Assembly (NCBI GenBank): GCA_022925895.1
Contig: JAKSYS010000354.1
Span: 1-62,388 of the forward strand
DNA: 62,388 bases
Source of the DNA: Fragilaria crotonensis
Taxonomy: Eukaryota > Bacillariophyta > Fragilariophyceae > Fragilariales > Fragilariaceae
Direction: 5' to 3'
The notes beneath the pieces are model-generated. The model was not told where the DNA came from, did no database searches, and worked only from the letters and a program-made list of their open reading frames with translations. Shown piece by piece: positions 14,280 through 50,291 of this stretch. Position 1 is the stretch's first letter; the number at the start of each line of letters is the position of its first letter. The position numbers were made by a program, and so were the translations under genes.

Positions 14280-14432
14280 ACGACATACTGGAGTATGTCG
14301 TATGTGGGTGGGCTAGTGTTTGTGCCGTACAGTGTACAGTATAGCGTTTTACACCGTCTGCTGGGATACCGTACTAGCGCATGGTTTGTACGCTGTACAT
14401 TCATTGTACGTTGTACAAGTGTATCATAGCTA

Positions 14433-14463
<31 letters not shown>

Positions 14464-17196: not shown

Positions 17197-17234
17197 TGAA
17201 ACTTTCTTCCGGTTCCTTTGAACAGTGCTGCTAA

Positions 17235-17770: not shown

Positions 17771-20483
17771 GTGGACATCTCGTTTGTATTCAGTACAAAA
17801 GGTTATTGAGTCGGATTCCTTAAAGGAATCAAAAAGAAACTCAATCAACTCCAGGGGAAGAGCAAGTAAATCACGGTGAGTTCTGGTGTCCCATTCAATT
17901 TTGTACTGAATTTGTTTACTCGATTTGAATCGATAAACACAGCCAAATGTTGCTTGTCCGGTGCTCTGAAAGATTCCATTCCTTGTTGTTTCATCATCAT
18001 GGTGGCTGTCGGGTACATCAGCATCACCATCTGGTTGCTCCCATGCGCGTGTGTATGGTGTCGATCATGAAGGAGTACATTAAACGTTGGGCTGCCTGAA
18101 GTTCATATGCAGAACCCTCAATTCGCTTCTGTGCCCGTCTCCCAGGGTGCTTTGCAGCAGGAATTAGAAGTGATTCTGACGCTGTGCACAAAAGTTCACT
18201 GGAGAGCCAAACCGAGACATATCATCCACAATGTGTAACAACTCATGGAATTTCGGAAACTTCCATGCATCCTCGGCATTGCTTTTCTGTCCTTCCTTCC
18301 TTATGATGGTTCCCTTTTTCTTACCCTTTTTCTTGTCATCCTCCTTTCCTCAACTTTCAAGGGAATGGACTGTTTGCACATATCCATGAAATTGCGAATG
18401 GAATCCTGATGTTTCTTCATTTCATTTGCAACATGTGCTGGATTTGTAGTCTCCCAGTAATGACTCTGGTTTAGCCAAGCATCAAACAAAGGAGAGATTC
18501 AAGTACTTCAAGGACCTCAGGAACCTTCTTAGTTGTTCTTTCTCAAGACATGTTTGGATCATTTGCCATCCTGCTTCATATTGGAAGAGGATGACAAACA
18601 AAAAACGAGGCCAACGCGTTCTGATGCAGTTATCTTTGTCAAATTTGTTACCCCATTGCTGAAATCTGTTGATGGATACTCCTTTCGGTAGGTTTGGCGA
18701 TGAGACTTGTGAAATGCTATTGCAAGGTCATCAAAGGCAGCCTTCTTGGATGCTGGAAGACTGTCCAATATAAGTTTTGTTACTTTCTCGATGACACCTT
18801 TCGAAATGCATGCATTGTCTCCACAGGAGTGGCCCCAAAGATTCCACGCTCAGGGTCAGCAAAGGCAATGTGTTCAAATGCATTTTCAAGTTTATGTTGA
18901 GACCATCGTTTCCTGAGATCATCATCATTACTCCTGGCAATGAAACCCATATCCGAGGCTACCAGGTATTTGCAATGGACATCACAGTTCTTCAGATCAT
19001 CATAATTGACATCACAGCACCGATGAGGGCGTTGATTCCACTGGTGTGAACACCATACCGACCACACAGCATATCTCCTTCTTGCATATCTTGAATGATG
19101 AACAACACACATGTGACAATGTCGACACAGATTCTACCCTTTGGACCAATTGGCAAATGAACACCACACAGTTGTGGTGAACATTTCGAAGGTCTCCAAT
19201 ACAGCATCCAGCTCCTTATGATAGATACGAATGGCATCGCCCATACGAAGTGTCTGCTTCTGAGCTGATGAGGACTTCCTCTTTGGGAGAAAGCCATGAT
19301 AGCCCCATGCCTTGATACTCCTTCTGAATTTTTCTGTAAAATGGCTGGAGTGAACATGTAGGGTTTAAGTGAAAAGATCATTCCCTGTTACAGAGGTACG
19401 ATCAATCCATTGGATGATTGGAACAAACAATTGCTTCTGAGGATCTGTGATTAATCGATCATACGCCTTGCGATAGACACTCCCGGACAGTGCCTCACCC
19501 AAAACATTGCTGCCTTTCAATTTGTGGTAGGGCTTCAGGGGATCATTGATATCGATGGCAAGGTTTTCTGCAGTCATAATGCTTGGATTTTGCAGCAAAC
19601 TTAGCAACTGTGAAGCGAAGTCAAAACAAATCACATCTGATGGAGAGCCATGATGTACATCCACTCTTCGTACAAAGGGAAGCAGTCTTTTCCCATTACG
19701 AACTGAGTTGATCAGGGCATCAACATTTTTGGCACGCGAGAGTCCACCCACTGGGTTGTAAGAATAATTATCAGCAGATGCAGAGCGTGCCCACTCCAGG
19801 ACTTGACCAAAAGTGTAGTCGGGTGCATTGGCATGGTCCAGGATTTTGAGGAGAGAAACAGTCCACTTCTGATCGGTAGTATACATGAAGTTTGAACGAA
19901 ATGATGGGGCTTCCACATCTTCATCAAGTGCAGAATTCGTACAGGTAAGAATGTTTGGGTCATCACTTAACACGGACAAATCATCACTTTTGTTGCAGTC
20001 CTCGATGTCCTCACAAGAAGTGCTTTCAACTTCCACACCATTGCCAGCCGGAAACTGCAGAAGGTTGTCTGTGCCATCAAAATCCATGTGGGGATCATTC
20101 ACCATATGTCGCCTTAAAAGGGCAGGCCTCTTGTTACTTGTGCATGTGATATTCCCATCCTCATGAAGACGGCGACGGTGTGAAGCAGAAGCCCCATGTG
20201 TTGCTGCATGGTGTGATTTCTTCACAATGAAATTATAACACCCGATGTTTCTATCAATATGCTGTGTATATGCTGCTTGATTGGAAAAGGGTTTCTTGTT
20301 GAAATTCAGGCAGAAGGGGTTTTGACAGAAGAGCAGGGGTGCCTTTGAGGAAGCAGACGAGGACAACATTTTGAAGAGAAGGTTTTGAAGAAAGGGTTTT
20401 GAAGAGGACGAGTGAAGTGAAAATGAGGTGTTGAAATTGACAGGACACAGATTCACTAAACAGAAGTTCGGGAAAGCGTGCAT
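17771..20483 (-). pseudogene. Plavaka/KDZ-type transposase, copy 1
   Basis: The best preserved part is a 372-codon frame (20,483-19,365). It begins with a Cys/His N-terminus (FCQNPFCLNFNKKPFS..AAYTQHIDRNIGCYNF), a zinc-finger-like DNA-binding region. It then has YDRLITDPQKQLFVPIIQW followed by IDRTSVTG, which resembles the first catalytic-Asp block of Plavaka transposases (usually PIILYxDxTxLS). The following frames contain KRSSSAQK-like basic sequence, VDIVTCVLFIIQDMQEGDM, RKRWSQHKLENAFEHIAFAD, GIFGATPVETMHAFRK, and SNGVTNLTKITASERVGLVF. They are separated by one-base shifts, and the C-terminus is cut by the deletion. The family call rests on my recognition of these blocks. Confidence 0.55.
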
Positions 20484-20721
20484 TCAAATTGTACATTTAC
20501 TTTCGTACATTTTTGGTGTATGTAAAAATGAAGGGGGTGTGGTATGAATTCAAAATTTGAAAACCCTGCATGAATGTAGAACCTACATACCAACTCGGTA
20601 CTTGGTATGAAATTCAAATGGTGGCAAAAAGACTATCCCACAAACAGGATTTTCAGTGTTCAAAATTTGGCGCACAATCGGAAAGTTTTTCACACAACAA
20701 GGAAGCACCACAAATACAACC
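20484..20721. promoter_or_regulatory. Shared spacer between divergent transposon genes
   Basis: About 240 bases separate the transposase start (minus) from the ATG of the accessory gene (plus, 20,722). The same arrangement recurs at 47,745-47,969. A bidirectional promoter is the simplest reading; no specific motif was identified. Confidence 0.4.
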
Positions 20722-22224
20722 ATGGCATCAATGGCACACCAAACAGCAGCAGGCATGACTGCCTTAAAGCCCAGCTCTAGGAAACAAAGGAGAGACTTCA
20801 TAAGAGGCGTGAACAGTGACCACAGATCCCAATGATCTGATTCAAAGTGACAACGAGGAGGAGGAGGAGGAAGAAGTGCCACGGAAAATGGATGCAAAAC
20901 TAGGACAGAAGCATGCATACGGAAATCCACCATCCCTACCTTCAACTATTAAAGTCGGGAAATCAAGTGACAGCCAACTAACATCATCGGTTCCAGGGCT
21001 AAGCAGCATAGTGGACATGAGCATGACGGAAAATACAGAAGAGAATCAAATCAGTGTGATCAAGACTTGCATCAAAAACACGTGTTCTCTATTTGGAAGT
21101 TCTATCAAAAGACTATCATTCTCATTTCAGTGAAGATGAGAAAACACTTTGTGGCTTTATCATGAAGCACACAAACATTCGAGGAACCGAAAACTGGTGG
21201 CTTGGGATGCGGAGAATAGTTGTAAAACACACACTGATCTTCGAACAATGCAATAAAAAACATGCAAACGAAATTCAAAGGTGAGGAATTGAAGTGAGTG
21301 TACTTTGCCAAAGCCCGAGCATACTCACACTCACTTGCATTCAACATCAAACACCTTGCATCCAGAGGGATTCACTTCCAATTTAGGAACGTATGAACAC
21401 AGCCTATACAGTGGAAGCGAGGAAGAAACCAGTTACCTCCTCAAGATGAGGGATAATATCTGCTACTATGCCCAAATCATAGACACCTATGCCCCATGCA
21501 TTGTCGGCAGCAGCAAGTGGAATAACACTATCAACATGGAGAACCACTGTGCAACAACTGACAGAAAAGTATGGAGCAAGAAAATCCTGTCCATAAGTGA
21601 TGAAGCATTCATTTTGCTGTGCCTGATCAACTATGGGAAGAGGTGGTTCGCGGAATTAGTTAAGACAGAGAAAATGGTAAGTTTATCCGAATGGTTTGTC
21701 ACAGAACAAACAACAAGAAACTGACTTGTTTTGTTATCACTTGTTGGAAACAGCGAATTGGTACATGGACTGATGAGGACAACAACAACCTACCCGTAAG
21801 TTACACTATGATACTAAATGAAATGAAAAAACCACATCCTAACTTCTGACCAATCTTTGCAATACCATGTTCGCAGCCACCACTTTACACATTCTCCAGG
21901 AACAAGGGTGCTCATGATAATGGGGAGGCTGTGGTTGGTCACAGGTGGGAATGAGGAAATACGATGAATTATACATGGCCATCAAGAATGATAGAAAGAA
22001 ATCAACCACCCCAACATTCAACCAGGAACTACTTAAAATGTTTCTGTCCAGAAGGAAAAAGGAGTCTGGCCGGGGTCAGGAAACAATTTGATGACAAGGG
22101 TAAGAAACGCCCACACAAGTGCATTGATGTATTTGACGAGGACTCTGATGAGGAGGATGATAACTACTCCAGTCATCTTGCTCCTGAACTTGTCTACAGT
22201 GAATTGAAAGTGGAGGCAGTTTAG
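20722..22224 (+). pseudogene. Transposon accessory gene, spliced, copy 1
   Basis: The likely start is the ATG at 20,722 (MASMAHQTAAGMTALKPSSR), leading after a shift into SDNEEEEEEEVPRKMDAK. The next recognisable block is DEKTLCGFIMKHTNIRG..ENWWLGMRRIVVKHTLIFEQC, then MRDNICYYAQIIDTYAPCIVG and ISDEAFILLCLINYGKRW. Two probable introns follow (GTAAGT near 21,680 to AACAG near 21,753, and GTAAGT near 21,797 to CGCAG near 21,877). The 3' exon gives DELYMAIKNDRKKSTTPTFN and an acidic end DEDSDEEDDNYSSHLAPE. I cannot name the family. The basic and charged composition and linkage suggest a DNA-binding partner of the transposase. Small indels break the frame. Confidence 0.5.
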
Positions 22225-22414
22225 AATAGATCAGACACTTAGTAATGAATAGTAGAATGGTTCATCAAAGCCACACGAATAGGCACAATTAAAACTAATC
22301 TCCAACAAAAGTTAAAATGAGCGACAATAACATCTATTATATGAACAATGTCAGCTCAGAACTACTGAGGTGATTACTTCATACACACTACACAGCAAAC
22401 TTCTTCTTTCGAAT

Positions 22415-22640
22415 ATCTAATTCAGGAATTGAAATTCATGATCACAAATGAAGAAGTGGTATAGTTCATATATTTAGAGTCCAAGAGTTCAGGAATCCCA
22501 CCCGAGTGTTAGTAAAATGAGTCAGTGAAATTCAGGAATTGAAATTTTGGAGCTCAGGAATGCAAAGTATGAGCTCCTATGCAAGAGATGAAAAAGTTCA
22601 GGAAAAATAAATTTCAGAGTTCAGGAATACGAGGAAACCC
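22415..22640. repeat. Subterminal TTCAGGAAT repeats of copy 1
   Basis: At least six TTCAGGAA or CTCAGGAA words occur in about 220 bases near the right limit of the element. The same cluster is present at about 49,660-49,880 in copy 2. Clusters of short subterminal repeats are typical transposase-binding regions of cut-and-paste elements. Confidence 0.6.
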
Positions 22641-22783
22641 GCTTCATACACATGATGTACAAGCTCTTTAGTCCTAAGTTTTTACCTATATTTTAGGTAA
22701 AAATTATGAACAAAAAATTATCATATCAAAGATAATTGGTTTTTCATATCCAAGAGCCGACTTGGTTTTGGCACCCTTAGATG

Positions 22784-32789: not shown

Positions 32790-32798
32790 GACACAAAC
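32790..32798. other. Left target site duplication (GACACAAAC)
   Basis: The 9 bases GACACAAAC directly precede the left terminal repeat and recur directly after the right terminal repeat at 50,283-50,291. Nine bases is the usual duplication length of Mutator-like elements. Confidence 0.93.
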
Positions 32799-32875
32799 GG
32801 GAGTGCCTAATGCGCTTAGAATTAATGCGCTTATAAAGCACTAGCACCAATCAAAATCGTCCGAAACGTCATCAT
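32799..32875 (+). repeat. Left terminal inverted repeat, 77 bp
   Basis: It matches the reverse complement of 50,206-50,282 and of 40,722-40,798 at 76 of 77 positions (A instead of T in CACTAGCACC). It contains a 10-bp direct repeat, AATGCGCTTA, twice, 19 bases apart start to start, a plausible transposase-binding pair. Confidence 0.93.
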
Positions 32876-33116
32876 CGCAGTTTAATTTTGTGCGACCCCC
32901 TGCTAGTTTTAAGTCATGTGGGTCACATTGATTCTGCCGTTGGCCCAATGTGCGAAATCATTAGCGTACTGCAGATCACGTGTTGGAGTACACACGATCA
33001 AAACCTCCAGAATTACATATTACACATATATCTGCAGTATACATTATAGTACATAGCATACTCGGAGTTCGGAGTCTTCTCGGAGTGCAAAATTTAATTC
33101 GACCGACAGTGTGAAT

Positions 33117-33855
33117 CAGGGTTGGGAAAAACCACTACTCATTATTTTGCCGAAAGTGGTTTTTGCAAAAACCACCCAAAAACCACCGAAAAACCACCCA
33201 AAAACCACTAAAACCACTTGAAAAACAACTTTACGTGTTAAAATCACGTAGTAACGACTTCCCACGTAGAGAAGGTACCGTCGTTGTCGTAGCAGTGACA
33301 GCAAAAATCACCGGCATACTAGTTGATGATTTGCATTCAACACAGCCACCATAACTCCATACATTATCATGCTGTGAATCATGAGATTGGCAACCACTGT
33401 CAATTCCATCAATATCAATGGATTGGGCAAGATTTCTTATCAAATCATGCGGTAATTTGCAACTAAATGCTGCCATCATGACGGTTCATCATTGCCAGGC
33501 TTCATCTTCACTCTATTGGCAGCATTTGAATGGACAAGTGTTGGAGGTTGTGTGAAAACACGTGAACACAATGATGCAAGAAATGTGATCAGTTAAACTC
33601 TCTGTGGCGCGTGGTCATTGAACAGGTGAGTTACAATGTCTACGTACAATGTACTATGTATTTGTACTGACACTACTGGTACTGTGTGTCAGTATGACGG
33701 TATGGGCCTCACTTTACGTACGAGGTCTGCTATTTAATTAGCAAAAACCACTTTTTAGCTCGAACAAGAAAAACCACTTAAATTTTGGGAAAGTTGTTTT
33801 TGGGGGTTTAAACCCAAAAACCACTTCGAGCAAAAACCACACCTTGCCAACCCTG
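33117..33855. mobile_element. hAT-like non-autonomous element (MITE), 739 bp
   Basis: The ends are CAGGGTTGG..CCAACCCTG, flanked by the 8-bp direct duplication GTGTGAAT (33,109-33,116 and 33,856-33,863). An 8-bp duplication with CAGGGTTGGC-like ends is the hAT pattern. Both subterminal regions are packed with AAAAACCAC words in direct and inverted sense. It encodes no transposase. It lies inside the composite MULE, so it inserted there or was carried in. Confidence 0.88.
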
Positions 33856-34026
33856 GTGTGAATACATCAAGGTCTGTAAATGTAGTATATGTTCCACTGT
33901 GCGTTGTGAATTTTTGGAATGTGTGCTCTGCTTCGAGTACAAATTATTTATGTTCCATAAATTTGTTTGCATGCTGTACTTCTTGGTCCTCATTGTTGTT
34001 GCTGCTTTTGCTCATCCTTTTGGTAC

Positions 34027-34620
34027 CTGATTTTCTGGCAATAGCAGCTTCTTGCTGTTTTGTTGGCAAGGGGTGGTTGCGCTGACGAGGGCGGGCGACG
34101 AGGAATTCCAGTCGACAATTAGACAGTAGACTTGTGCCGGAAAGTGGTGGTTCTTGTGCTCAGGCCGGGCAATAAGGAATTGCAGTCGAGGACTGTCAAC
34201 TACCTGACGTGGCGATAGCTGCTTGTTGCCATACAGCGACAAGCGGTGGTTGCGCTCAGGCCAGGCGACAAGGACTCGGCACTGGAGCCAGCGGTAGAGG
34301 AATCACAGTCGAGGACTGTCAACTACCTGACGTGGCGATAGCTGCTTGTTGCCATACAGCGACAAGCGGTGGTTGCGCTCAGGCCAGGCGACAAGGACTC
34401 GGCACTGGAGCCAGCGGTGGAGGAATCACAGTTGAGGATAGTCAACTAGTACCTGACGTGGCGATAGCTGCTTGTTGCCGTACAGCGACAACCGGTGGTT
34501 GCGCTCAGGCCAGGTGACAAGGACTCGACTCTTGACTTGTTCCGTAAGTGGTGGTTGTGCTAAGGCCAGAGGGGCGGCGACAAGGAATTGCATCAAGTAC
34601 CTGACGTAGTGCTAGCTGAT
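34027..34620. repeat. Tandem array, ~123-126 bp unit
   Basis: Units start at 34,211, 34,334 and 34,460 (GGCGATAGCTGCTTGTTGCC), with degenerate units before (from about 34,040) and after (to about 34,620). Spacings of 123 and 126 are multiples of three, and a plus-strand frame (34,209-34,517) stays open through three units, giving a peptide repeat IAACCHTATSGGCAQARRQG. A C-to-T change (CGA to TGA) closes it in the last full unit. It lies directly upstream of the cargo gene. Confidence 0.85.
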
Positions 34621-34682
34621 TGCCAGAAGTGGCAAGTGGTGGTGTCTTCTTGTTAGCCGTGGGTGGTTGTGGTGTTCTTGCA

Positions 34683-36958
34683 ATGATGAATCCCAACCCA
34701 CCACATGACCGTGCTTTGATTGGTGCCAAGAGGAAGACCTCTTCAAGTAGAACTGCGGTTCTCAACCTGGGGCAATCCCCAAGGGTTTATCCTGTGGGAG
34801 CTGCCTCAAAGAGTAGGAGAAGTGTCGGGAGGGACAGTTGTGGCATTGGTTGCGATGATGTTTACAACAATTCTGGCCGGGGAAGCGATGTGGATATGCA
34901 TATTGCAAATGCTGGGGAGGAGAAGCAAGAACCGCAACAACGGAGCACCAGGGGTAAGAAACGCCGTGCTAGGAAGAAGAGGATCAGGGCTGCCAGGAGT
35001 GGCAACAATTTGGAAAGCCAATGTAATGATAGTGATGGTTACACTCCTGATGTGGAAAATGTCGACAAGAAGAAACCGAAGGAGGACAGCAGCATCGAGA
35101 ATGCCAACAAACTTCCTGATCGCTCGCCCCGTGAATTCCTCCCATCACAGGAACAAATGCTGGCACTGCTTGTTAAAGGCTTGGCATTTGTGCCTGGCTC
35201 TCCTGATGAAATACTATTCCGGAAGACGTTCCACCTGGATGTTGAGAATGATTGTCGTTACCCTGGTGACGTGAAGCTTTGTGGCACTCCGATGTCCTTC
35301 ATTCTGAATTCACTTAATACTGTTTACCAACATGATTATGATGTCTTGCAACTCTCTTCAATTTCGGATATGTTCACGGAACACGATGCTAATGCTGGAA
35401 CATCTGTCGATTTTGTGCAGAAGGTGTACCTCATGGATGTGATTTTGAACCGATCGATGAGCCCCTCCTCATCCCCTGCACCATTGGCTGGAGAAGGTGT
35501 TCTTGTTGATCCAGACATTGTGGCTGTGATGAGGTGCTTTGAGGACGATGACTTGATGGACAGTGTTGACTTCAAGTTCCGGACGTGCTTGGCTTTCATT
35601 CCCGATGCTGGGATTTTTTACTGTGCAAGGGAAAGACATCACCCTGATTCGGGTGTCGATAATACTTTGATCCCCCTGGATATGAGTTGGCTTCGTCTCC
35701 ACCATTGCCATGATTGCAATGGGTCGGGAGTTTACACTTTTGGGACGGTTATGTGAAGAAGTTGTTCATGGATGACGGTCAGCTGGTTTCCATCTGGAGA
35801 ATTGGTTTGAGGTCCACTTGCCATAATGGCCATGCACGAAAGACATACCGTGCGCAGCAATGTTCCGATCGGATGGGTCCGAAGATGGCCCCAGATGTAT
35901 TCTCTGGTGAGGATGCTGGGACATGGCCACAGGCAGAGCTTGCAGCTCTGTACAATTGCAAGTTAGCATCGGCCACCTCAGCCAGGGAAGGGGGGCGCCA
36001 CTATGCACTCGGTTGCCATCATTTCAACATGCCGCCAACATGTTGGATCCTTGACCCGACTTGTGATCCCATCATTGATGTGATTATTGCCATTGACGAT
36101 GAGGGGAATTGTAAGGACCAACAGACTGTCCTTCGCATTCGGCATGTCCAAACCCTCATCCCAGGGGCTGGAAGATGGTTAGACACCATAACAACCTGCA
36201 ATTCAGCGATCCACTGTGGAGTTCAGACCTCTAACGCACGTGCTGGAAAGGGTGATGTTGGTTCCATGCATGCCCTTGGCACAAATATCACTAAGGGCAA
36301 CATGAAGCCGGTCCCATATGCTACCAATCGCAGTGTTCCTCCGGAGATGCTTTGTGATATGATTGTGTCGTTGCATGCAATTGGGAAGGCATGTTTCCCT
36401 GATGTCCTTGGTGTGATCCTGGGTCTCGAAGCGGACTCTGGATTGGAACCTATTCCACCCATGAACGGAGATGGTGTTGAACGTGTTGGATTCACGATTG
36501 ACATGAGCGTCAATCTGGGGAATGCTTCACACTACGATGTCCACGACGCTTCCCAGGGTTATGCAGTTTGGACAGAAGACAAACCATCAGTAGGTTTTAA
36601 TTGGTTCTTTATTCTGCCAAATGTCCATGGTCTCAAACCTGATGGGGCAACCTTTTCAGGCCTTGCGGTTCGTCTTTGCCATGGAGCGGCAATATGCTGG
36701 GATGGGAGAGTATTACGCCACTGTACTTCCATTTCTATGCCTGATGGTCCAAATGGTGAGCGAGTGAGTAAGGGGGCGCGACAGCATTTCCAGAACAATC
36801 TCTATGGAACTTTCACTGCTGCCAAAGAGAAGGTTGTAAGTGCTGGTAGGGATTTGTGTGCTAAGAAGCAGCTTCTCGAGGGTGCTCAGCTCAATGTGCT
36901 TCCTGCTGCTGATGGTAAGGACGAGGAGCATGAAGTGGCTCCTTCAGGTAGACAATGA
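34683..36958 (+). CDS. MULE cargo gene; C-terminal half resembles a 2OG/Fe(II) oxygenase fold
   Basis: Two frames (ATG at 34,683 to 35,756, then about 35,714 to 36,958) join into one protein of about 755 residues if a one-base indel near 35,720-35,745 is allowed. The N-terminus is disordered with a basic stretch (RGKKRRARKKRIRAA), a likely nuclear signal. The middle has LLVKGLAFVPGSPDEILFRK and a Cys/His cluster (HHCHDC, then CHNGHARK). The C-terminal half reads VNLGNASHYDVHDASQGYAV, then WFFILPNVHGL and ICWDGRVLRHCTSI: an H-x-D pair followed by beta strands and a distal His, the layout of double-stranded beta-helix dioxygenases including the TET/JBP group. The family call is inference. Hydroxylation of DNA bases would fit a mobile-element protein but is not shown. 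Confidence 0.5.
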
Positions 36959-37185
36959 TAAGGATGGCCCTATAATTTGTGTATGAAAATGTGTGTATGA
37001 TAATCGTTGTCCTCTGCCTGTTGAAAGGATCATTTTCGTACCAACAATTACAGTTGAGATAGAAAGTGCTACCAGCCATTCCACAGTAGTATTCGTTAGA
37101 GAGAATGCCACTATTGTTATCGCTCCATAGCACATGAACCTTCAAATAACCTGACAACATGTGTACATCTTGCTGCATTCCTAGT
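36959..37185. other. Spacer between convergent MULE genes
   Basis: About 230 bases between the stop of the cargo gene (+) and the stop of the transposase (-). No gene; probable 3' untranslated regions of both. Confidence 0.5.
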
Positions 37186-40100
37186 TTACAGTTCTTTTTG
37201 TTTGACATAGACAAATAGTTGCGAGTCTCCAAATGCCTTTTCCATCCACTTTTGGACGGTTCTTGCTCGTACATATAATGTGGTGTTTACATCACTCCTT
37301 TCATTGTCTTTCCTCCAAAAGTTTCCGCCTCGCTCAATCAGCTGAACTCCCACAATATTGTTGTCTGGGGATGGAATCCGCGAGTGCTCGGTACTCCTGT
37401 GTCTGTAAATGCTGGTTGGACGTGACATATACTCCACAGCCTCATTGGAGAAGTGGACCGACCTTATAGAAAGATGACGAATGATATGAGAAGGAGGTGG
37501 AAGGTTGTCTCGTAGCTCTCGAGTGAGATTCAAGGCACTACCAGCATTTGGCAACACAACCTCATGACAATTTTGATTGCCCAAGGTTCGATACCATTGA
37601 TTCCACCCAACACTATTCTTTTTCCCAACAAAAGCTGCCTTGTCCATAACAGGACATCGCTTAATGGTATGCTGAGTCGAACTGCAAAATGAGCATTGGG
37701 AAGGCCTGTTACGGGCATCTGCTATCTTTGATGCCAGTGCATTTCTCTCATTCAAGGAGGTCAAGCGCTTGTGCCGCACCTTTCCAAAATTGTGTCGCTG
37801 CATTTCAAAGTTGTTTCCAGGGTCACCACCAGCAAGAGGCGCAAAGATACCTTCCCTCCTTGACTCTGCATTCGGACCAAACGCTGCCAAGAATGCGTCG
37901 GCGGAGGACATGAAGCCAATCAATGGCACAGAGGGCTCGTTACCAGAAGATGCGGACATACTCAGGGCATCTCGCATGCGAACGAGGACCCCTAAGCATT
38001 CGCGGCGCAAGTCTTCGCTGGGAAGACTTAGTGCAAGGTTTGCAACACTATTTGCCACATCTGTGAAGTCGCGATAGGTAACATTCCTCGTCGTTGACTT
38101 CGAATTGCTAGTCATGCCTCCCACTACCCTTTCCCGTGCTGTGTCACTGTTACTCTCTTCTCCAGAGTCAACATCATTTTCCTTATCTGCATCGTATACC
38201 TCATTGCTGATTGAATGCTCTGTTGCACCTGTGTTGTTAACGTCGTTGCTAATCAAATGCTCTGTTGCACCACTTTCGTCAACCACATTGCTGATCAAAT
38301 GCTCTGTAGCACCACTTTCAGCACTGTTCAAGATTGCACCGCCCTCGCGATGTCCAAGTACGCCGAGGAGTTCTACCTTATCACCAATACTACCAATATA
38401 TGTATCCCTGTCGATAACCCAGGTTGAAAGAATATTGGTAAACTCTGGATTTGGGGCTGCAACAGACAGTGGCTGTGCATGAAACTTTGGATGGACGAGG
38501 TGCAACTGAAATGATTGCTTGTGATATGCAAAGAGATGCCTGCATTGCACTTGGTAGGCAATGAATACATTACAGGAACACTTACATCCATCAATGATTC
38601 GAGAAGGTTTTGATGATTTGCCATGCCATATGACTTCCACCATTTCTGAATCACGATCATGTTTGCTACTAGTACCGGTGGTGGGGAGTACACAGTAGTA
38701 CTCTGAAGACTTTCTGTACTGCTCCTCGCAGATTTTGAAACCGCGTTTTGATAGTTTGAGGAGCATAGTTTTGATTTGTTCATCTGATGCTGTATGACTG
38801 TTTGCAGCACTTTGTCGCCTGTACTGATCTCGAAGCCCTGCCCTTTTATTTGAAAGCTCTGACATCCTCTGGATACAGTCTTTTACTTGTGTTGCAGGGT
38901 CATCCCAACTGCCGCCACCAATGCGAGCAACATAGGAAGCGTTGTTGGACTCAGCAACTGATGATCCAAAGTTCCTCATTACAGGGTGTTGCACAAACTG
39001 AATAACGTGCAAATCTATGCCTTCCCGCATGTATAACATTGTTGAAGTAGTTGTTCAAGCTTTGGGGCTCATCCCGACTTTCCATTGTTGTGAGAATCAT
39101 TTGCCTCGTCTTTTCGTAGTCTTCCAAAGTGTATGACTCGTGCACCAGTGCTCTTAGCATTCCACCATAATAATTCCACTTCTCAACTCCAAAATGTTTA
39201 TACCATGAACCACAGTCTGCTGACAAAAGATGGTGCACATCATCGAGGAGTGAACAAGAACCTTTAATGCCAAGGGATACTAGCAGACTCTCGCAAGTTA
39301 CTAGCCCGTCACCGTAGATAACTTGAAGGCCATCCAATTTTCGGTTGCAGGAGAAGTTGTTGCAGCACCGGAGCAGCCATGCGTATGCCTCAACCCTCTC
39401 AGAGATGACAATGGCTTCAGCACATACGACCATATTGCCGTAGCCATCCAAAGAGGTAACCGCAATGTACGGGTAAGAGAAATGGTTAAGTTGACGTTTC
39501 ATCCCATCCAACGAAATGCATGATGCACATGAGTCCCAGTCAAACCTCATTGTGGCTGTTTGCCAACAAATGCCAACAATTGTGTCATTTTCATCGCGCT
39601 GAATGTCAAAGAGAAATGATGGATCCTTTCTGTGTAGTTGACATAGGAATTGAATGACTAAGCACTTAGTTCCTGGGTCAGACAGTGCATCTTTCAAGGT
39701 ATCGTTGGCAATTTCTTCAGCAATAGAGAGGTACTCTGGGGGTAGGTCATCACCTAAAATGAAATCAGCTTCTTCATTCGACACAGTTCCTTGAGAAAGG
39801 AGTGTATCAAACTCTCCAGCAGAGATCTTTGCCCTGACCTTGGCTTTCATGTTGTTGATGAACTTGCTTGATACGTCAAAACCTTTTGGTAGCATATCAC
39901 AAAGCATCGCCCTCATTTGTTTTGTACTCGGCTTTTGACCACTTGCCAGCAGCTGAACAATAGTGTGCAGCTTTAAATTTTTTGTACGAGCTACATACTT
40001 TGATGCATGTCCACCACTCCTCCATGCAGCCTTGTATTGCTCCCCTGAAGGCTTGCACCCTTTTCCATGCATGTATTGCACCTTAGAGATCCTGAATTCA

Positions 40101-40516
40101 TCCTGCGTAGCACCAGTGCCTCTCTTTTGAACAAATGAGGCCTTAAATTCACATCCACACTTGGATTTTGCAACTTTTCGTGGTATATAGATTTTGCCAT
40201 TCTCTCTTGAGAGTTCTTCACGAGCTTTCTGTCGTCTAGTATTCTCTACGTCTCGTGCTGTTGTTTCAAAGCACAGAACAGAGAAGCCGCGGTCAATCAC
40301 AAAGAACCCAAACTGTGATGCCTTTTCGCGCATGGCATCAATAAGTTGCCTTCGTGTTGGGAACAGAGTCCCTACTGGAAACTCTCTCTCAAACTCACTC
40401 TTGATGTGGAGCAAATTTCCCATCTCTGCATCAGAGTAGAAGAGGTCAATAGCATCATGGTCAGTGGTAACGTCTTCCATGGTGCTGAAAGCCAAACAGG
40501 AGTCGCTTTTGTGCAA
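37186..40516 (-). CDS. MULE/FAR1-type transposase with SWIM finger (one frameshift)
   Basis: Two frames (40,516-38,951 and 39,039-37,186) make one Mutator-like transposase of about 1,100 residues; the shift lies within 38,951-39,040. The N-terminal part has a FAR1/WRKY-GCM-like zinc region (SKCGCEFKASFV..YMHGKGC). The catalytic core shows ISLDGMKRQL, YIAVTSLDGYGN, ERVEAYAWLL and VIYGDGLVTCESLL, then DDVHHLLS (DxxH). The second frame begins near VMRNFGSSVAESNNASYVAR, followed by a SWIM finger (GCKCSCN..QCRHLF), three repeats of SGATEHLISN-type sequence, and a zinc knuckle (CSFCSSTQHTIKRC). Such proteins bind the terminal repeats and cut and paste the element. The ATG lies 22 bases from the 260-bp right-end module, which thus contains its promoter. 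Met 13 is an alternative start. Confidence 0.85.
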
Positions 40517-40538
40517 GTTGGTTGGTGAATTGCACTGC

Positions 40539-40798
40539 TACTCGGAATGCAAATTTGGGTTTCAAAATTTTATAAACAAATCAATATAGCAATATACTCC
40601 GAGTATAGGTGAGCATGCTCGTGGGCTGGTGGGAAATTTGAATCCAACCTGATTTGAATCTGTTGATATATTTTTCGATGAGGTCAAATGACTCTTTTTT
40701 TAAAGACAACCCCTCCCCAAAATGATGACGTTTCGGACGATTTTGATTGGTGCAAGTGCTTTATAAGCGCATTAATTCTAAGCGCATTAGGCACTCCC
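40539..40798. repeat. Internal copy of the MULE right end, 260 bp
   Basis: It is identical to 50,023-50,282 except for one base (CTCCCC versus TTCCCC context). The last 77 bases are the terminal inverted repeat. The following bases (GTTGGCAAG) do not match the left flank, so this end was not used in the present insertion. It lies directly upstream of the transposase start and probably drives it. Confidence 0.92.
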
Positions 40799-41340
40799 GT
40801 TGGCAAGGGGTGATCGGGTGATCAAGGAAAAAGCTCGATCCAACGTCGTACAGTAGCAGTACTCCGATAAACTTCCAGCACTCCAGTAGATATTTTGTAC
40901 ATGGTAGTAGAGTAGTGATTCAACAGTACGGCTGCGAAGTTACCGTAGTATGAATATATGTCATACATACTTAGAGTACACGCCAAAAAGGTACCAGGTA
41001 CTACAAGCACTAAGAGTATAATCCAATTTCAGCTGAAAACTGACTGGACACGTTGTTGTGTTTTCACTTTACTGGCACTTCCTTCCCTCTTGATCGTCAA
41101 TACACTGGTATCATAGACCACAATGGCATCCTCGTCGTCGATTAAGGCTGTTGTGGGTCGAGCTCTACGAGAAGCAGGAGTCGCACTCAAGCAAAATGTT
41201 GGAGTTGAGGTGAGATTGCCCATGACGTCATTCTAGCGCAGTTGTACCAGCATCCTACATGAGAAAATATTGAAAGATTAATCGATGAGGATCTGGAATA
41301 AGTTTGGTCGATTTTCGAACAATCGAGTAGCGAGTGGCCT
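40799..41340. other. Host-like sequence captured inside the composite transposon
   Basis: This segment lies between the internal MULE end and the start of homology to the other Plavaka/KDZ copy, and matches neither. From 40,845 to 41,025 it shows the GTAC/AGTACT words typical of host intergenic DNA in this window and rare in the transposon bodies. It then runs into an ATG with a good start context and a short exon-like frame. I read it as a captured host promoter and first exon. Confidence 0.5.
41123..41209 (+). pseudogene. Captured first exon, possibly gamma-carbonic anhydrase-like
   Basis: A start in good context (ACAATGGCA) opens a 29-codon frame containing SSSIKAVVGRALREAGVAL, which ends exactly before a GTGAGA donor. 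The GRAxREAGxAL pattern resembles the N-terminus of gamma-type carbonic anhydrase subunits of mitochondrial complex I (GRAIRETGQAL in plants). No second exon follows, so this is a gene fragment. The product call is tentative, since 29 residues cannot prove a family. Confidence 0.35.
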
Positions 41341-44300
41341 CAGTGCTGCTGTCGAGGTTGTTGAAAGCAACAGTGATGTGATCAGTGCAACAAATGATGG
41401 TTCCCCGCGTGCTGTTGTTGAGTCAGAGGAAGAAAGCAAGATCAATATAGTCGCAAAATCGAGTGGTGGTTCCCCTTCCCTCGTGAGCAGTGATGTTTTG
41501 GAGATTGTGCAGAGCAACAATGAGACAGTCAGTGCACGGAATGATGGTAGCAACACCAGAAAAACATTTGTATGGTGCCAATACCCTTCATCAACAATCG
41601 ATCTCAAGATGATGTTGCAAGTGGAGCATTGCTGACAAATGCAGATCTGGAAGAGGCATTTACCGGTCTGGACTATTTGAACAACCTTCTTCCACCACCA
41701 TTTGGTGACCTGGTTCTGCCTGACCAGTTGCGTGGTTTTGGAGAAATGGGATCACAGGAAAGGCTTGATCATAGCAAAAGTGGTGGGAAAACTTGGATGG
41801 CCACCCGTGAGCTGCAAATGATGACTTCACTCCTCATGAGGGATGGCAGGTATCACACATCAGTTGCAATCCTGTCTTTTGACGACATGCAGGTAATTCA
41901 AAGGTTGCTTTGGACGTCTTCAACGTCATCTATCTGCAAAGAAGTGCAACGACTTGATGGTAGCCAATGGAGCCGATCATGCAGAATGTCTTGCCCTTGT
42001 GAAAAAAGGTATGGAAGTTCTAAGGAAGAACTTTACCAGAAGTATGATGACCAAATGAATCGTGTTGTGAAGGAAGTCCTGTTGTTCTATCCAGGGCTTC
42101 TGCAGAAAAGGTTGATTGTGTTTCCTCTGAATCTCAGCGGCGATCATTGGGGGCAACATTTGTTTTCAATGCTGGAGACGTTGTGGCTGCCACGGATGAT
42201 GTATCATGCCTCGGACATTTTTTTCTTTATTGCAGTCTTCATCCCTCCGGCACGAGAAAAATTCCAAACAATGTCGGTGTTGTCTGGTTCCTGAACCTTG
42301 CCTTCAGTTACCAGGAGCAAAGGAAAAACAGTGCAAATGATAGCAGCACTCAAACAAGATGAAGTGGCTCAGTCCGTTCGGACGAACCTTTTGGGCAAAT
42401 GAAGGGCACCAATACATTCCCTGCATTGGGGTGTTGGATAATGATGTTCTTCCCCTGCAAGAAGATGGCCATAGCTGTGGGATTGGGATTATAGCTGCAA
42501 TTGCAATAATTCTCCGAGATATCATTGGGACTCAAGATGGAGTTGCCTACAACGAAATGTTTAGACGCGATCGCATGGAAATCCAGATGTCAACTGATGT
42601 GAAATCGAAGGAGCACATTTGCTGTTTTCCACAGGGAATATTCACAAAACTGTTTAAAAGGGTTGATTCGGCTTCCATTTCCTACTTGCATGCGATGAAA
42701 GCACAGTGGTTTTTGCTGTTTGATCGCATTGCAGAATTTCAACACGTCACAGTGCCAAAACGTCAGAATTCAAATCATTTGATGGATCCCTGTTACGGAA
42801 GTCTGAAGTTGGAACTTCAGACTTTCACGTGGCCCTGGATGCCAGTACCATCCAATGCCGCAGAGGAAGACTGTGTGACCTCACAGGACGACAGTGTTAC
42901 GTTGGAGGATGTTTCTTCCAGGGAGGATGTTTGCGAAATGCCAATGAACGGAGTTTGCCATCAGAGGAGGATGTTGCCGATTTCAAACCATCTGGATCTG
43001 CTGATGGACCTGAACAACAGGAAGAAGATATTGATCTCAGAAGCCTGGTGGAATGATCCTGCTAAGCTTCCCCGAGCAAGCAGGGTATGGAAAGGTGGGC
43101 CTCCTTGTACGTATGGTTATGGAGACATTCATGTACCTGATGAATGCCCGAAATTACCTTTTGGAGAAAGTAGGTACAAAACATTGGTATCAGACAATGA
43201 AATTGAGAAATTTAGAAAAAAGTGGCGAAAGAAAGGAGATGAGAAAGATCAGTCAGTGCTTCTGAGGGATGAAGAGGCAATGAACAAATTTGTGGAGGAC
43301 AGATTTTTGTACTGGGGTTGGAGCTCTACCAAAGATCACCTGAAGAATGTGGAAAAGAAGCGGGCCGAGATGCAAAGAAAAATTGATGGATGTAAGAAGA
43401 AAAAGACAAAGGATGATTACAGAGAGCAGTACACGAAAGAAATAAAGTTTATGAAGAAGGAAAGGAAGAAATTCAAAAGGGCATTTGAATTGGAATGGAC
43501 ATTTGGCACTGAGGCCATGGTGCATGGCCTCAAGTACAACCCACGTGAAGATACCTTTGTTGCACTTTTGGTTTACAATGTTAAGACAAAAGAAGGAAAG
43601 TTGGAAATGAAGGAAGAAAAAAATTGCTGTTTCCAAAGACTGGATCAAGGATGCCGATTATGCAAAAGGGGTAATCCAACATGTCATTAACCTTGGAAAC
43701 ACGGATGGATTTGTACCTGTTCCTGAAGGGGAAACCATCCTCATTCATACTAAAAAGGTACATAAGCTGCAATACGTTCACCCACAGACACAATGGGTGT
43801 TTGATCCTCAGTCGAAAAGGTCCTTAAGGAGCAACAGTGACTCACCAGGGGGTAAACATATGAAGCAGATACAGGCCCCTGGTTACTGGGAGGTCATCTT
43901 TCATGGAGAAACACAGCCCATTCGAACTGATGAAGACTTTGTGAAACAATTTAAGACAGGATTCTTGGAGGAGGTCAAGCGTATGAGGTGTGGATTTGTT
44001 GACATACCAGTGGGCGATTTCAAAGAATCACATTTGCATGAATATCCCAAGCTGCAGGTTCCTGAAGCACCCCAGGTGCACTTTGTACAATCCGAAGGTG
44101 AAGATCTTTGTGTTTCAAAGTCATTGGCCAGTGCTTTATATGCAATTGGCTTTGATAATGCTGCCAAATCCATTAACCATTTTGGTGAAAGTCACCTAAG
44201 AGGAGGTACTGTTGATGCCATTCGAAAGGTGGGACAGTTTGCTGAAACTCAGCTGCCTACATGGATCACCCGAAAAGTTCTGAAGAGACCACACATGTTT

Positions 44301-44681
44301 GATTGGCAACTCCTTCAAGAACAAATGAAGGACACAATGGTATTGGCTGTGCTCAATGAATCCGATGGAAATGGTTCACATGCAGTTACCATTCACAGTG
44401 GGTATGTGTATGATGCAAATGAAGTGGTTGCAATTCCTCTCTGCAAGGAGGCCTTGATTATTGCTGCTCAACCTCAACTGTGAAGAATGAGTTTGTGAGC
44501 TTGGAAGGCAACTCTCTTTTTTTATGATGGCCCAGACATCAACAGGAAGGCAAGTTTTACTCTTTGGGTAGATTCAAACAAGCGAAAGCGAGCCGATGGT
44601 GATGGTCCAAAGATTGTGAGGGCTCGAACAGACGATGGCAACATGTTTCCTTTAGGTACTTTGATGCAACAAGCTAGCTAA
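41285..44681 (+). CDS. Transposon protein with Ulp1 (C48) and papain-like protease domains (frameshifted)
   Basis: Frames at 41,285, 41,572, 42,359, 43,797 and the tail to 44,681 join into one long protein if about five one-base indels are allowed. A Ulp1/SENP-like SUMO protease domain is visible: the catalytic His in RLIVFPLNLSGDHWG, and LPLQEDGHSCGIGIIAA with the Gln-x5-Cys pair of family C48. A Lys/Glu-rich coiled stretch follows (about 43,200-43,500). A second possible protease domain has a Cys in EDLCVSKSLASALYAIG and a His/Asp pair in GSHAVTIHSGYVYDANE, a papain-like order. Ulp1 proteases are common partners of KDZ, Plavaka and some MULE elements. The tail reads NEFVSLEGNSLF..KRKRADGDG. 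The 5' end is truncated relative to copy 1. Confidence 0.65.
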
Positions 44682-47600
44682 GCAAATTTGGATGCCCACT
44701 CTGTATATGGTTTTGTCTCAAGAACTGTGGAACTGTTGTGTGAGATGGATATAACAAAACAGGGGGCCACGACAGTGTTTCCAGAGACAAGGTGGTATGT
44801 TGGAGACCACTTCCACTCTCTCAACAGGGTTGACTCGTGTTCTTTAATTTCTTCTGTTGTGGATTGAACAACCAGTTGGTATCTCTCGTCCGGATCCTCG
44901 GGTGAGTCAACAACAACTACAAGAGCCAAACGACAGGGAAACTTCCCATGTTCCCCAAAGTCAATTATCATCCAGTCATGTATGGGACCATCGGACTGAT
45001 AGCAGGGATGACATCGAAAGGTGTGGACATCTCGTTTGTATTCAGTACAAAAGGTTATTGAGTCGGATTCCTTAAAGGAATCAAAAAGAAACTCAATCAA
45101 CTCCAGGGGAAGAGCAAGTAAATCACGGTGAGTTCTGGTGTCCCATTCAATTTTGTACTGAATTTGTTTACTCGATTTGAATCGATAAACACAGCCAAAT
45201 GTTGCTTGTCCGGTGCTCTGAAAGATTCCATTCCTTGTTGTTTCATCATCATGGTGGCTGTCGGGTACATCAGCATCACCATCTGGTTGCTCCCATATGC
45301 GCGTGTGTATGGTGTCGATCATGAAGGAGTACATTAAACGTTGGGCTGCCTGAAGTTCATATGCAGAACCCTCAATTCGCTTCTGTGCCCGTCTCCCAGG
45401 GTGCTTTGCAGCAGGAATTAGAAGTGATTCTGGACGCTGTGCACAAAGTTCACTGGAGAGCCAAACCGAGACATATCATCCACAATGTGTAACAACTCAT
45501 GGAATTTCGAAACTTCCATGCATCCTCGGCATTGCTTTTCTGTCCTTCCTTCCTTATGATGGTTCCCTTTTCTTACCCTTTTTCTTGTCATCCTCCTTTC
45601 CTCAACTTTCAAGGGAATGGACTGTTTGCACATATCCATGAAATTGCGAATGGAATCCTGATGTTTCTTCATTTCATTTGCAACATGTGCTGGATTTGTA
45701 GTCTCCCAGTAATGACTCTGGTTTAGCCAAGCATCGAAACAAAGGAGAGATTCAAGTACTTCAAGGACCTCAGGAACCTTCTTAGTTGTTCTTTCTCAAG
45801 ACATGTTTGGATCATTTGCCATCCTGCTTCATATTGGAAGAGGATGACAAACAAAAAACGAGGCCAACGCGTTCTGATGCAGTTATCTTTGTCAAATTTG
45901 TTACCCCATTGCTGAAATCTGTTGATGGATACTCCTTTCGGTAGGTTTGGCGATGAGACTTGTGAAATGCTATTGCAAGGTCATCAAAGGCAGCCTTCTT
46001 GGATGCTGGAAGACTGTCCAATATAAGTTTTGTTACTTTCTCGATGACACCTTTCGAAATGCATGCATTGTCTCCACAGGAGTGGCCCCAAAGATTCCAC
46101 GCTCAGGGTCAGCAAAGGCAATGTGTTCAAATGCATTTTCAAGTTTATGTTGAGACCATCGTTTCCTGAGATCATCATCATTACTCCTGGCAATGAAACC
46201 CATATCCGAGGCTACCAGGTATTTGCAATGGACATCACAGTTCTTCAGATCATCATAATTGACATCACAGCACCGATGAGGGCGTTGATTCCACTGGTGT
46301 GAACACCATACCGACCACACAGCATATCTCCTTCTTGCATATCTTGAATGATGAACAACACACATGTGACAATGTCGACACAGATTCTACCCTTTGGACC
46401 AATTGGCAAATGAACACCACACAGTTGTGGTGAACATTTCAAAGGTCTCCATACAGCATCCAGCTCCTTATGATAGATACGAATGGCATCGCCCATACGA
46501 AGTGTCTGCTTCTGAGCTGATGAGGACTTCCTCTTTGGGAGAAAGCCATGATAGCCCCATGCCTTGATACTCCTTCTGAATTTTTCTGTAAAAATGGCTG
46601 GAGTGAACATGTAGGGTTTAAGTGAAAAGCGATCATTCCTGTTACAGAGGTACGATCAATCCATTGGATGATTGGAACAAACAATTGCTTCTGAGGATCT
46701 GTGATTAATCGATCATACGCCTTGCGATAGACACTCCCGGACAGTGCCTCACCCAAAACATTGCTGCCTTTCAATTTGTGGTAGGGCTTCAGGGATCATT
46801 GATATCGATGGCAAGGTTTTCTGCAGTCATAATGCTTGGATTTTGCAGCAAACTTAGCAACTGTGAAGCGAAGTCAAAACAAATCACATCTGATGGAGAG
46901 CCATGATGTACATCCACTCTTCGTACAAAGGGAAGCAGTCTTTTCCCATTACGAACTGAGTTGATCAGGGCATCAACATTTTGGCACGCGAGAGTCCACC
47001 CACTGGGTTGTAAGAATAATTATCAGCAGATGCAGAGCGTGCCTCCAGGACTTGACCAAAAGTGTAGTCGGGTGCATTGGCATGGTCCAGGATTTTGAGG
47101 AGAGAAACAGTCCACTTCTGATCGGTAGTATACATGAAGTTTGAACGAAATGATGGGGCTTCCACATCTTCATCAAGTGCAGAATTCGTACAGGTAAGAA
47201 TGTTTGGGTCATCACTTAACATGGACAAATCATCACTTTTGTTGCAGTCCTCGATGTCCTCACAAGAAGTGCTTTCAACTTCCACACCATTGCCAGCCGG
47301 AAACTGCAGAAGGTTGTCTGTGCCATCAAAATCCATGTGGGGATCATTCACCATATGTCGCCTTAAAAGGGCAGGCCTCTTGTTACTTGTGCATGTGATA
47401 TTCCCATCCTCATGAAGACGGCGACGGTGTGAAGCAGAAGCCCCATGTGTTGCTGCATGGTGTGATTTCTTCACAATGAAATTATAACACCCGATGTTTC
47501 TATCAATATGCTGTGTATATGCTGCTTGATTGGAAAAGGGTTTCTTGTTGAAATTCAGGCAGAAGGGGTTTTGACAGAAGAGCAGGGGTGCCTTTGAGGA

Positions 47601-47744
47601 AGCAGACGAGACAACATTTTGAAGAGAAGGTTTTGAAGAAAGGGTTTTGAAGAGGACGAGTGAAGTGAAAATGAGGTGTTGAAATTGACAGGACACAGAT
47701 TCACTAAACAGAAGTTCGGGAAAGCGTGCATTCAAATTGTACAT
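44678..47744 (-). CDS. Plavaka/KDZ-type transposase, copy 2 (frameshifted)
   Basis: This is the same protein as the copy 1 transposase but with its C-terminus preserved (44,678-45,334: MIDTIHTRIWEQPDGDADVP, then WDTRTHRDLLALPLELIEFL and IHDWMIIDFGEHG). The N-terminal Cys/His region, the PIIQWIDRT block (about 46,660-46,690), VDIVTCVLFIIQDMQEGD, GIFGATPVETMHAFRK and TNLTKITASERVGLV are all present, split by one-base shifts at roughly 46,980, 46,800, 46,620, 46,450 and 45,700. Some shifts are absent from copy 1 and the reverse, so an intact ancestral frame of roughly 1,000 codons is likely. Its TAG stop overlaps the TAA stop of the protease gene on the other strand. Confidence 0.55.
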
Positions 47745-47969
47745 TTACTTTGTACATTTTTGGTGTATGTAAAAAATGAAGGGGGTGTGGTATGAATTCA
47801 AAATTTGAAAACCCTGCATGAATGTAGAACCTACATACCAACTCGGTACTTGGTATGAAATTCAAATGGTGGCAAAAAGACTATCCCACAAACAGGATTT
47901 TCAGTGTTCAAAATTTGGCGCACAATCGGAAAGTTTTTCACACAACAAGGAAGCACCACAAATACAACC

Positions 47970-49462
47970 ATGGCATCAATGGCACACCAAACAGCAGCAG
48001 GCATGACTGCCTTAAAGCCCAGCTCTAGGAAACAAAGGAGAGACTTCATAAGAGGCGTGAACGAGTGACCACAGATCCCAATGATCTGATTCAAAGTGAC
48101 AACGAGGAGGAGGAGGAGGAAGAAGTGCCACGGAAAATGGATGCAAAACTAGGACAGAAGCATGCATACGAAATCCACCATCCCTACCTTCAACTATTAA
48201 AGTCGGGAAATCAAGTGACAGCCAACTAACATCATCGGTTCCAGGGCTAAGCAGCATAGTGGACATGAGCATGACGGAAAATACAGAAGAGAATCAAATC
48301 AGTGTGATCAAGACTTGCATCAAAAAACACGTGTTCTCTATTTGGAAGTTCTATCAAAAGACTATCATTCTCATTTCAGTGAAGATGAGAAAACACTTTG
48401 TGGCTTTATCATGAAGCACACAAACATTCGAGGAACCGAAAACTGGTGGCTTGGGATGCGGAGAATAGTTGTAAAACACACACTGATCTTCGAACAATGC
48501 AATAAAAACATGCAAACGAAATTCAAAGGTGAGGAATTGAAGTGAGTGTACTTTGCCAAAGCCCGAGCATACTCACACTCACTTGCATTCAACATCAAAC
48601 ACCTTGCATCCAGAGGGATTCACTTCCAATTTAGGAACGTATGAACACAGCCTATACAGTGGAAGAGGAAGAAACCAGTTACCTCCTCAAGATGAGGGAT
48701 AATATCTGCTACTATGCCCAAATCATAGACACCTATGCCCCATGCATTGTCGGCAGCAGCAAGTGGAATAACACTATCAACATGGAGAACCACTGTGCAA
48801 CAACTGACAGAAAAGTATGGAGCAAGAAAATCCTGTCCATAAGTGATGAAGCATTCATTTTGCTGTGCCTGATCAACTATGGGAAGAGGTGGTTCATGGA
48901 ATTAGTTAAGACAGAGAAAATGGTAAGTTTATCCGAATGGTTTGTCACAGAACAAACAACAAGAAACTGACTTGTTTTGTTATCACTTGTTGGAAACAGC
49001 GAATTGGTACATGGACTGATGAGGACAACAACAACCTACCCGTAAGTTACACTATGATACTAAATGAAATGAAAAAACCACATCCTAACTTCTGACCAAT
49101 CTTTGCAATACCATGTTCGCAGCCACCACTTTACACATTCTCCAGGAACAAGGGTGCTCATGATAATGGGGAGGCTGTGGTTGGTCACAGGTGGAATGAG
49201 GAAATACGATGAATTATACATGGCCATCAAGAATGATAGAAAGAAATCAACCACCCCAACATTCAACCAGGAACTACTTAAAATGTTTCTGTCCAGAAGG
49301 AAAAAGGTCTGGCCGGGGTCAGGAAACAATTTGATGACAAGGGTAAGCCCACACAAGTGCATTGATGTATTTGACGAGGACTCTGATGAGGAGGATGATA
49401 ACTACTCCAGTCATCTTGCTCCTGAACTTGTCTACAGTGAAGTGAAAGTGGAGGCAGTTTAG
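47970..49462 (+). CDS. Transposon accessory gene, spliced, copy 2
   Basis: The counterpart of 20,722-22,224 in copy 1. It starts at MASMAHQTAAGMTALKPSSR, passes through an acidic run, then CGFIMKHTNIRGTENWW, MRDNICYYAQIIDTYAPCIVG and LLCLINYGKRWFMELVKTEKM. It then has two probable introns (GTAAGT at about 48,923 to AACAG near 49,000, and GTAAGT near 49,042 to CGCAG near 49,121). The last exon gives MRKYDELYMAIKNDRKKSTT and ends with an acidic tail. The frame is broken by several one-base indels. The family is unknown to me; linkage suggests a DNA- or nucleoprotein-binding helper. Confidence 0.5.
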
Positions 49463-49654
49463 AATAGATCAGACACTTAGTAATGAATAGTAGAATGGTT
49501 CATCAAAGCCACACGAATAGGCACAATTAAAACTAATCTCCAACAAAAGTTAAAATGAGCGACAATAACATCTATTATATGAACAATGTCAGCTCAGAAC
49601 TACTGAGGTGATTACTTCATACACACACACAGCAAACTTCTTCTTTTCGAATAT

Positions 49655-49885
49655 CTAATTCAGGAATTGAAATTCATGATCACAAATGAAGAAGTGGTAT
49701 AGTTCATATATTTAGAGTCCAAGAGTTCAGGAATCCCACCCGAGTGTTAGTAAAAATGAGTCAGTGAAATTCAGGAATTGAAATTTTGGAGCTCAGGAAT
49801 GCAAAGTATGAGCTCCTATGCAAGAGATGAAAAAGTTCAGGAAAAATAAATTTCAGAGTTCAGGAATACGAGGAAACCCGCTTCA
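49655..49885. repeat. Subterminal TTCAGGAAT repeats of copy 2
   Basis: The same six-word cluster as in copy 1, followed by a short palindrome (TTTTTACCTATATTTTAGGTAAAAA) about 100 bases before the right limit. Confidence 0.6.
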
Positions 49886-50022
49886 TACACATGATGTACA
49901 AGCTCTTTAGTCCTAAGTTTTTACCTATATTTTAGGTAAAAATTATGAACATAAAATTATCATATCAAAGATAATTGGTTTTTCATATCCAAGAGCCGAC
50001 TTGGTTTTGGCACCCTTAGATG

Positions 50023-50282
50023 TACTCGGAATGCAAATTTGGGTTTCAAAATTTTATAAACAAATCAATATAGCAATATACTCCGAGTATAGGTGAGCAT
50101 GCTCGTGGGCTGGTGGGAAATTTGAATCCAACCTGATTTGAATCTGTTGATATATTTTTCGATGAGGTCAAATGACTCTTTTTTTAAAGACAACCCCTTC
50201 CCAAAATGATGACGTTTCGGACGATTTTGATTGGTGCAAGTGCTTTATAAGCGCATTAATTCTAAGCGCATTAGGCACTCCC
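50023..50282. repeat. Outer MULE right end, 260 bp
   Basis: The active right terminus of the composite: 183 bp of subterminal sequence plus the 77-bp inverted repeat, followed by the target duplication. It contains the same putative transposase promoter as 40,539-40,798 but here no transposase follows it. Confidence 0.92.
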
Positions 50283-50291
50283 GACACAAAC
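50283..50291. other. Right target site duplication (GACACAAAC)
   Basis: An exact copy of the 9 bases at 32,790-32,798. Removing the element and one copy would leave a gap of only about 760 bases between the phosphoglucomutase start and the next gene. Confidence 0.93.

Follow-up and report, generated by a model that had tools for sequence, protein, structure and literature searches.

Organization of the locus

The 62.1-Mb assembly in which other copies were sought comprises 881 contigs of the pennate diatom Fragilaria crotonensis; the window, the whole 62,388-nt stretch of DNA that was analysed, is its contig C286. The window contains a Mutator-like (MULE) transposon whose body is followed by a piece of host-like sequence, a Plavaka-type element and a further copy of the MULE right end (Table 1). 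The outer MULE termini start at 32799 and stop at 50282 and are each flanked by the 9-bp GACACAAAC, a target-site duplication (TSD) of the Mutator/MULE length that is also found, as GTTGGCAAG and TGTTGCTGC, around MULE copies on contigs C723 and C193. The terminal inverted repeats are 78-80 bp long and 99% complementary, as in long-TIR MULEs. Contig C174, which we take to be the other haplotype of the window locus, matches both window flanks at 95-96% and carries one GACACAAAC where the MULE sits in the window, and the duplication around the outer ends is therefore not due to chance. Both the claim of the first-pass annotation that the outer ends had been used and its expectation of an empty site with a single target copy were thus borne out. 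The site still exists in an empty version, and the two outer ends entered it jointly, which by itself does not reveal what lay between them at that time.

Table 1. Features of the 17.5-kb structure and its target-site copies (positions in the window)
Feature	Position	Strand	Description
MULE target-site copy, left	32790..32798		TSD GACACAAAC; single at the C174 empty site
MULE body up to the inner right end	32799..40798		8.0 kb including the 739-bp insert
Non-autonomous insert	33117..33855		ends CAGGGTTGG..CCAACCCTG, 8-bp TSD GTGTGAAT
TET/JBP-like dioxygenase gene in MULE	34620..36958	+	frame split: ORFs 34620-35756 and 35714-36958
MULE transposase	37186..40537	-	two overlapping ORFs, 37186-39054 and 38951-40537
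Inner MULE right end	40539..40798		second right end
TSD of the C723 insertion, probably copied	40799..40807		GTTGGCAAG
Host flank of the C723/C96 site	40808..41340		private differences from C723 and C96
Microhomology, host flank/Plavaka	41341..41342		CA common to both sides
Plavaka-type element	41343..50022		left ~3.2 kb absent; right terminus ..CTTAGATG intact
Papain-like-fold cysteine peptidase of Plavaka element	43611..44483	+	modest fold match
Outer MULE right end	50023..50282		first bases are the TA under the Plavaka-type element
MULE target-site copy, right	50283..50291		TSD GACACAAAC

The MULE transposase resembles PF10551 (E 0.012, 16.4 bits) and SWIM (E 0.021) at scores below the Pfam cut-offs, which for PF10551 is 27.6, and its relatives likewise stay below the PF10551 cut-off, at 17.2 bits and, on C232, C776 and C782, at 24.7, 23.9 and 23.8 bits. 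The 739-bp insert near the left end, which is missing from the MULE copies on C723 and C193 and has further copies elsewhere (e.g. on C76, C275 and C574), is presumably hAT-like, a label that we take from the length of its 8-bp TSD. Two tandem arrays were also seen, a ~123-bp unit present three times at 34175-34546, upstream of the TET-like gene, and a 42-bp repeat present three times within the transposase reading frame (38187-38312).

The inner right end and its counterpart on another contig

The second right end that had been reported inside the structure was confirmed: the inner (40539-40798) and outer (50023-50282) copies differ at one position. Solo copies of about 8 kb ending at this point had been proposed as a search target, and two near-identical solo MULEs were indeed found, on C723 (7209 bp, TSD GTTGGCAAG at both ends) and on C193 (7218 bp, TSD TGTTGCTGC), but at 7.2 kb, without the 739-bp insert. 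Past its inner right end the window continues with GTTGGCAAG and then with ~0.53 kb that resemble the right flank of the C723 MULE (536 of 549 alignment columns). Contig C96 has the flanks of the C723 MULE but not the MULE itself and is an allele or close paralogue of the C723 site, and empty sites are thereby seen for both the GACACAAAC insertion (C174) and the GTTGGCAAG insertion (C96). The segment at 40799-41340 is accordingly host DNA, as had been claimed, but it corresponds to the right flank, including the TSD copy, that borders a MULE inserted elsewhere. We consider that the inner right end is best read as the ordinary boundary between a MULE and host DNA, copied in from a different place.

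Over its first 189 bp the window flank is identical to C723 but not to C96, and beyond this point it has private differences from both. Because six substitutions in 543 bp of the flank are absent from both C723 and C96, as against two private substitutions in ~7.2 kb of the MULE body, the template was probably a further allele, unseen in the assembly; it would have been a MULE-bearing allele of the C723 locus. Beyond the position corresponding to the 41341 junction of the window, C723 continues as ordinary flank common to C96. Past ~220 bp of right flank, C723 and C96 are near-identical to each other, with 3 mismatches across a more distal 1793 bp, while 9 of 744 positions distinguish their left flanks, and this near-identity may represent a loss-of-heterozygosity tract.

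The Plavaka-type element

The Plavaka-type stretch of the window is ~8.7 kb long, and the interval 41341-50022 has at least 11 other near-complete matches at 98-99% identity, plus several partial ones. Four of these copies were traced leftward and possess 3.15-3.28 kb more, with CATCTAAGGGTGCC inverted repeats at the ends and a full length of 11.8-12.0 kb. Plavaka elements are recognized by a 2-bp (or 3-bp) TSD, and a 2-bp TSD was found in 9 of the 11 other copies whose two termini were both read, the exceptions being those on C55 and C69 and the chance expectation being 1 in 16 for each copy. The PF18759 profile scored above the Pfam cut-off within six of the 11 near-complete copies (C361, C95, C136, C69, C642 and C701) and in a partial copy on C80; the same search returned no row for the remaining five or for the window copy. 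The PF18759 transposase in other copies, the 2-bp TSD and ends that start with CATC are shared with fungal Plavaka transposons (in the available parts of PMC12730594 and Pfam PF18759), whereas the diatom host and the presence of a papain-like-fold protein in the family of the window element set it apart from what PMC12730594, in its accessible portion, describes. Since the termini are CATCT..AGATG rather than the CATCA..TGATG given there for PlavakaB, the family was filed as Plavaka-type and not as PlavakaB.

In the window the right terminus of the element is exact and is followed by the TA that corresponds to MULE position 40539-40540, 260 bp from the outer MULE end, and the outer 260 bp are therefore the end of the MULE that hosted the Plavaka insertion. 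On the left the element has no terminus, and CA is the only sequence common to it and the C723-type flank at their junction. Thus, of the complete Plavaka/KDZ-type element that had been described, the assignment to Plavaka holds through PF18759 in the other copies, but the element is not complete, its left 3.15-3.28 kb being gone by comparison with the four full copies; of two proteases named in the same description, one has a papain-like fold on a modest match. A second Plavaka-type copy lies in the same orientation at 14016-22783 of the window and has an internal deletion at 17770, with AG on both sides.

Origin of the 17.5-kb structure

We propose that the structure originated by insertion of the MULE, nested insertion of the Plavaka-type element and subsequent ectopic repair of a break, with the second right end being a repair patch, and we place the probability of this reading at about 0.7. 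The MULE entered the site and generated the 9-bp GACACAAAC duplication, as the TSD together with the empty site shows, after which the Plavaka-type element would have inserted at a TA located 260 bp from the MULE right end, as the exact right terminus and the 2-bp TSD of the family suggest. A double-strand break at or close to the left end of the Plavaka element would then have allowed the MULE arm to invade the near-identical MULE carried by a C723-locus allele and to copy from 40541 on the rest of the right end, GTTGGCAAG and ~0.53 kb of flank, ~0.8 kb in total, before being released and joined by the 2-bp microhomology to a Plavaka element from which ~3.2 kb had been resected. The pathway that we infer is synthesis-dependent strand annealing with microhomology joining, and the order of the events is reconstructed in the same manner. 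A single ectopic repair event would therefore account in one step for both the foreign TSD and flank at the inner end and the loss of the Plavaka left end. Against this proposal, no MULE harboring an uninterrupted Plavaka element, which would be the intermediate, was found, and the private substitutions of the flank call for a template allele that the assembly does not contain. The three MULE copies are distinguished by singleton differences, mostly single-base indels, except at one three-way site, and for this reason no conversion-tract boundary can be drawn and the MULE SNPs do not help to choose between readings.

The structure had originally been interpreted as a composite that jumped as a 17.5-kb unit, which would mean that an allele of the C723 locus with the MULE and an extra right end downstream was mobilized when transposase used the left end together with the more distant of the two right ends. 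Such a jump is compatible with the outer GACACAAAC TSD and the empty site, and the existence of ~0.6-0.9-kb relatives with paired ends, for which terminal sequence seems to be enough for mobility, as well as of plant MULEs in which additional ends occur and the outer ones bear TSDs (PMC3310237, as far as that source was available), speaks in its favor. However, it requires that a cut Plavaka element and a 260-bp MULE end were already placed ~0.54 kb past the C723 MULE, which is itself a rearrangement of the same kind, and neither C723 nor C96 shows this arrangement in the portion that was read. The annotation had further proposed a search for other copies with both outer ends; among the matches listed no copy besides the window spans either internal junction, in searches that scored the best 18 of 135, 40 of 119 and 40 of 105 candidates and whose results are lower bounds. 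Because simple insertion of a MULE, nesting of a Plavaka element in its right end and one ectopic repair give the same structure, the 17.5-kb jump was not borne out; it is unnecessary and less likely than nested insertion with repair, and we regard it as unlikely overall.

Insertion of a second, Plavaka-carrying MULE beside the first, with a deletion that fused the flank of the first MULE to the Plavaka interior, would yield identical junctions, including the 2-bp microhomology, but a later composite jump would still be needed to place GACACAAAC at both outer ends, and with more events than nested insertion and repair this course is most improbable. Mis-assembly of unrelated reads could be suspected from the many single-base indels between MULE copies, which are of the kind that read errors produce; it is nonetheless improbable, given the identical TSD on both sides with its matching empty site on C174, the overlap of just 2 bp at the 41341 junction, and a flank that differs from both the C723 and the C96 sequence, whose six private substitutions in 543 bp disfavor a mis-assembly or collapse of reads from C723 or C96.

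Repair following nested insertion may be compared with two situations described in plants. MULEs with multiple TIRs are known from tomato, rice, maize and Arabidopsis, and the origin of their extra ends is left open in the available part of that report (PMC3310237). As in those elements, an extra MULE end lies inside the element and the outermost ends bear the TSD; in the portion of the report at hand, however, the inner end has no recognizable TSD, whereas here GTTGGCAAG follows the inner end together with the flank of an identified locus. The presence of this TSD and flank indicates recombination or repair, and because the inner end is traceable to a second locus, itself also seen empty, such a route becomes testable. 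Excision repair with filler DNA and deletion of flanks has been documented for rice DNA transposons (PMC4423477, partially available), where, as here, a foreign segment is copied in and neighboring sequence is lost at a transposon boundary. In the rice cases covered by the accessible text, fillers measure 1-123 bp and the largest deletion is 2,479 bp, so the patch of ~0.8 kb and the loss of ~3.2 kb are both larger, a point against the repair reading, and, unlike in rice filler repair, the Plavaka element was not removed.

A TET/JBP-like dioxygenase gene carried by the MULE

The cargo of the MULE is the more surprising part of the structure. The possible oxygenase of the first-pass annotation proved to have a TET-type fold, a double-stranded beta-helix most like that of TET enzymes. 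Seventy-six of 107 relatives were chosen, and the HxD..H iron triad is present in 74 of these 76 rows, while 45 of the 76 have no Arg 8-17 residues after the distal His, the position of the 2OG-binding Arg. Pfam searches gave no family at E<=1 for P0001 and none at E<=0.1 for the ORFs of the window, a genome search with the PF12851 (Tet_JBP) profile gave no match, with the control profiles silent too, and comparison with solved structures gave no credible sequence match. With a fold match and no PF12851 match, the protein is therefore named TET/JBP-like by fold and is not filed as a member of that family. The TET-like family occupies at least 52 loci genome-wide, 36 of which have a MULE or Plavaka transposase no more than 8 kb away, as against ~3 expected; the 11 near-complete copies of the Plavaka family of the window contain no TET rows.

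Fungal DNA transposons carry TET genes, and Plavaka is among the carriers whereas Mutator does not appear in the list of the abstract; in the part of the main text available, the terms 'mule', 'diatom' and 'stramenopil' are absent and MuDR is named twice, for other cargo genes (PMC12730594). The F. crotonensis element is like these fungal transposons in that a TET/JBP-fold dioxygenase resides in a DNA transposon, and, against the accessible text of PMC12730594, differs from them in its diatom host and Mutator-type carrier. TET genes in diatom or Mutator transposons were not found among titles and abstract openings of the literature searched, a scope that mostly excludes subscription journals. 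We lean towards the view that two unrelated transposon superfamilies of this diatom, Mutator-like and Plavaka-like, carry the TET/JBP-fold dioxygenase as an anti-silencing gene multiplied to at least 50 loci. Such a situation would parallel that of fungi and, within the reach of the searched literature, would be new both for Mutator and for diatoms. Loss of DNMT5a in a second diatom is correlated with a depletion of methylation and with young transposons being overexpressed (PMC9998398, in the part available), and a TET-type countermeasure would therefore have a target. The occurrence of a TET-like gene in a MULE and near many Plavaka transposases suggests that anti-silencing oxidation of DNA bases arose or spread outside the fungi, and, if such carriage is real, repair-patched nested transposons would offer one route by which these genes change carrier.

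Shorter relatives of the MULE were also observed. Those of ~0.6-0.9 kb on C851, C679, C468, C327 and other contigs have facing matches to the MULE ends and are likely to be short non-autonomous elements. MULE derivatives of ~5 kb at C614:34106-39169 and C520:19189-24542 match the TET region while the transposase region is almost absent, and their TET frames are interrupted by stops.
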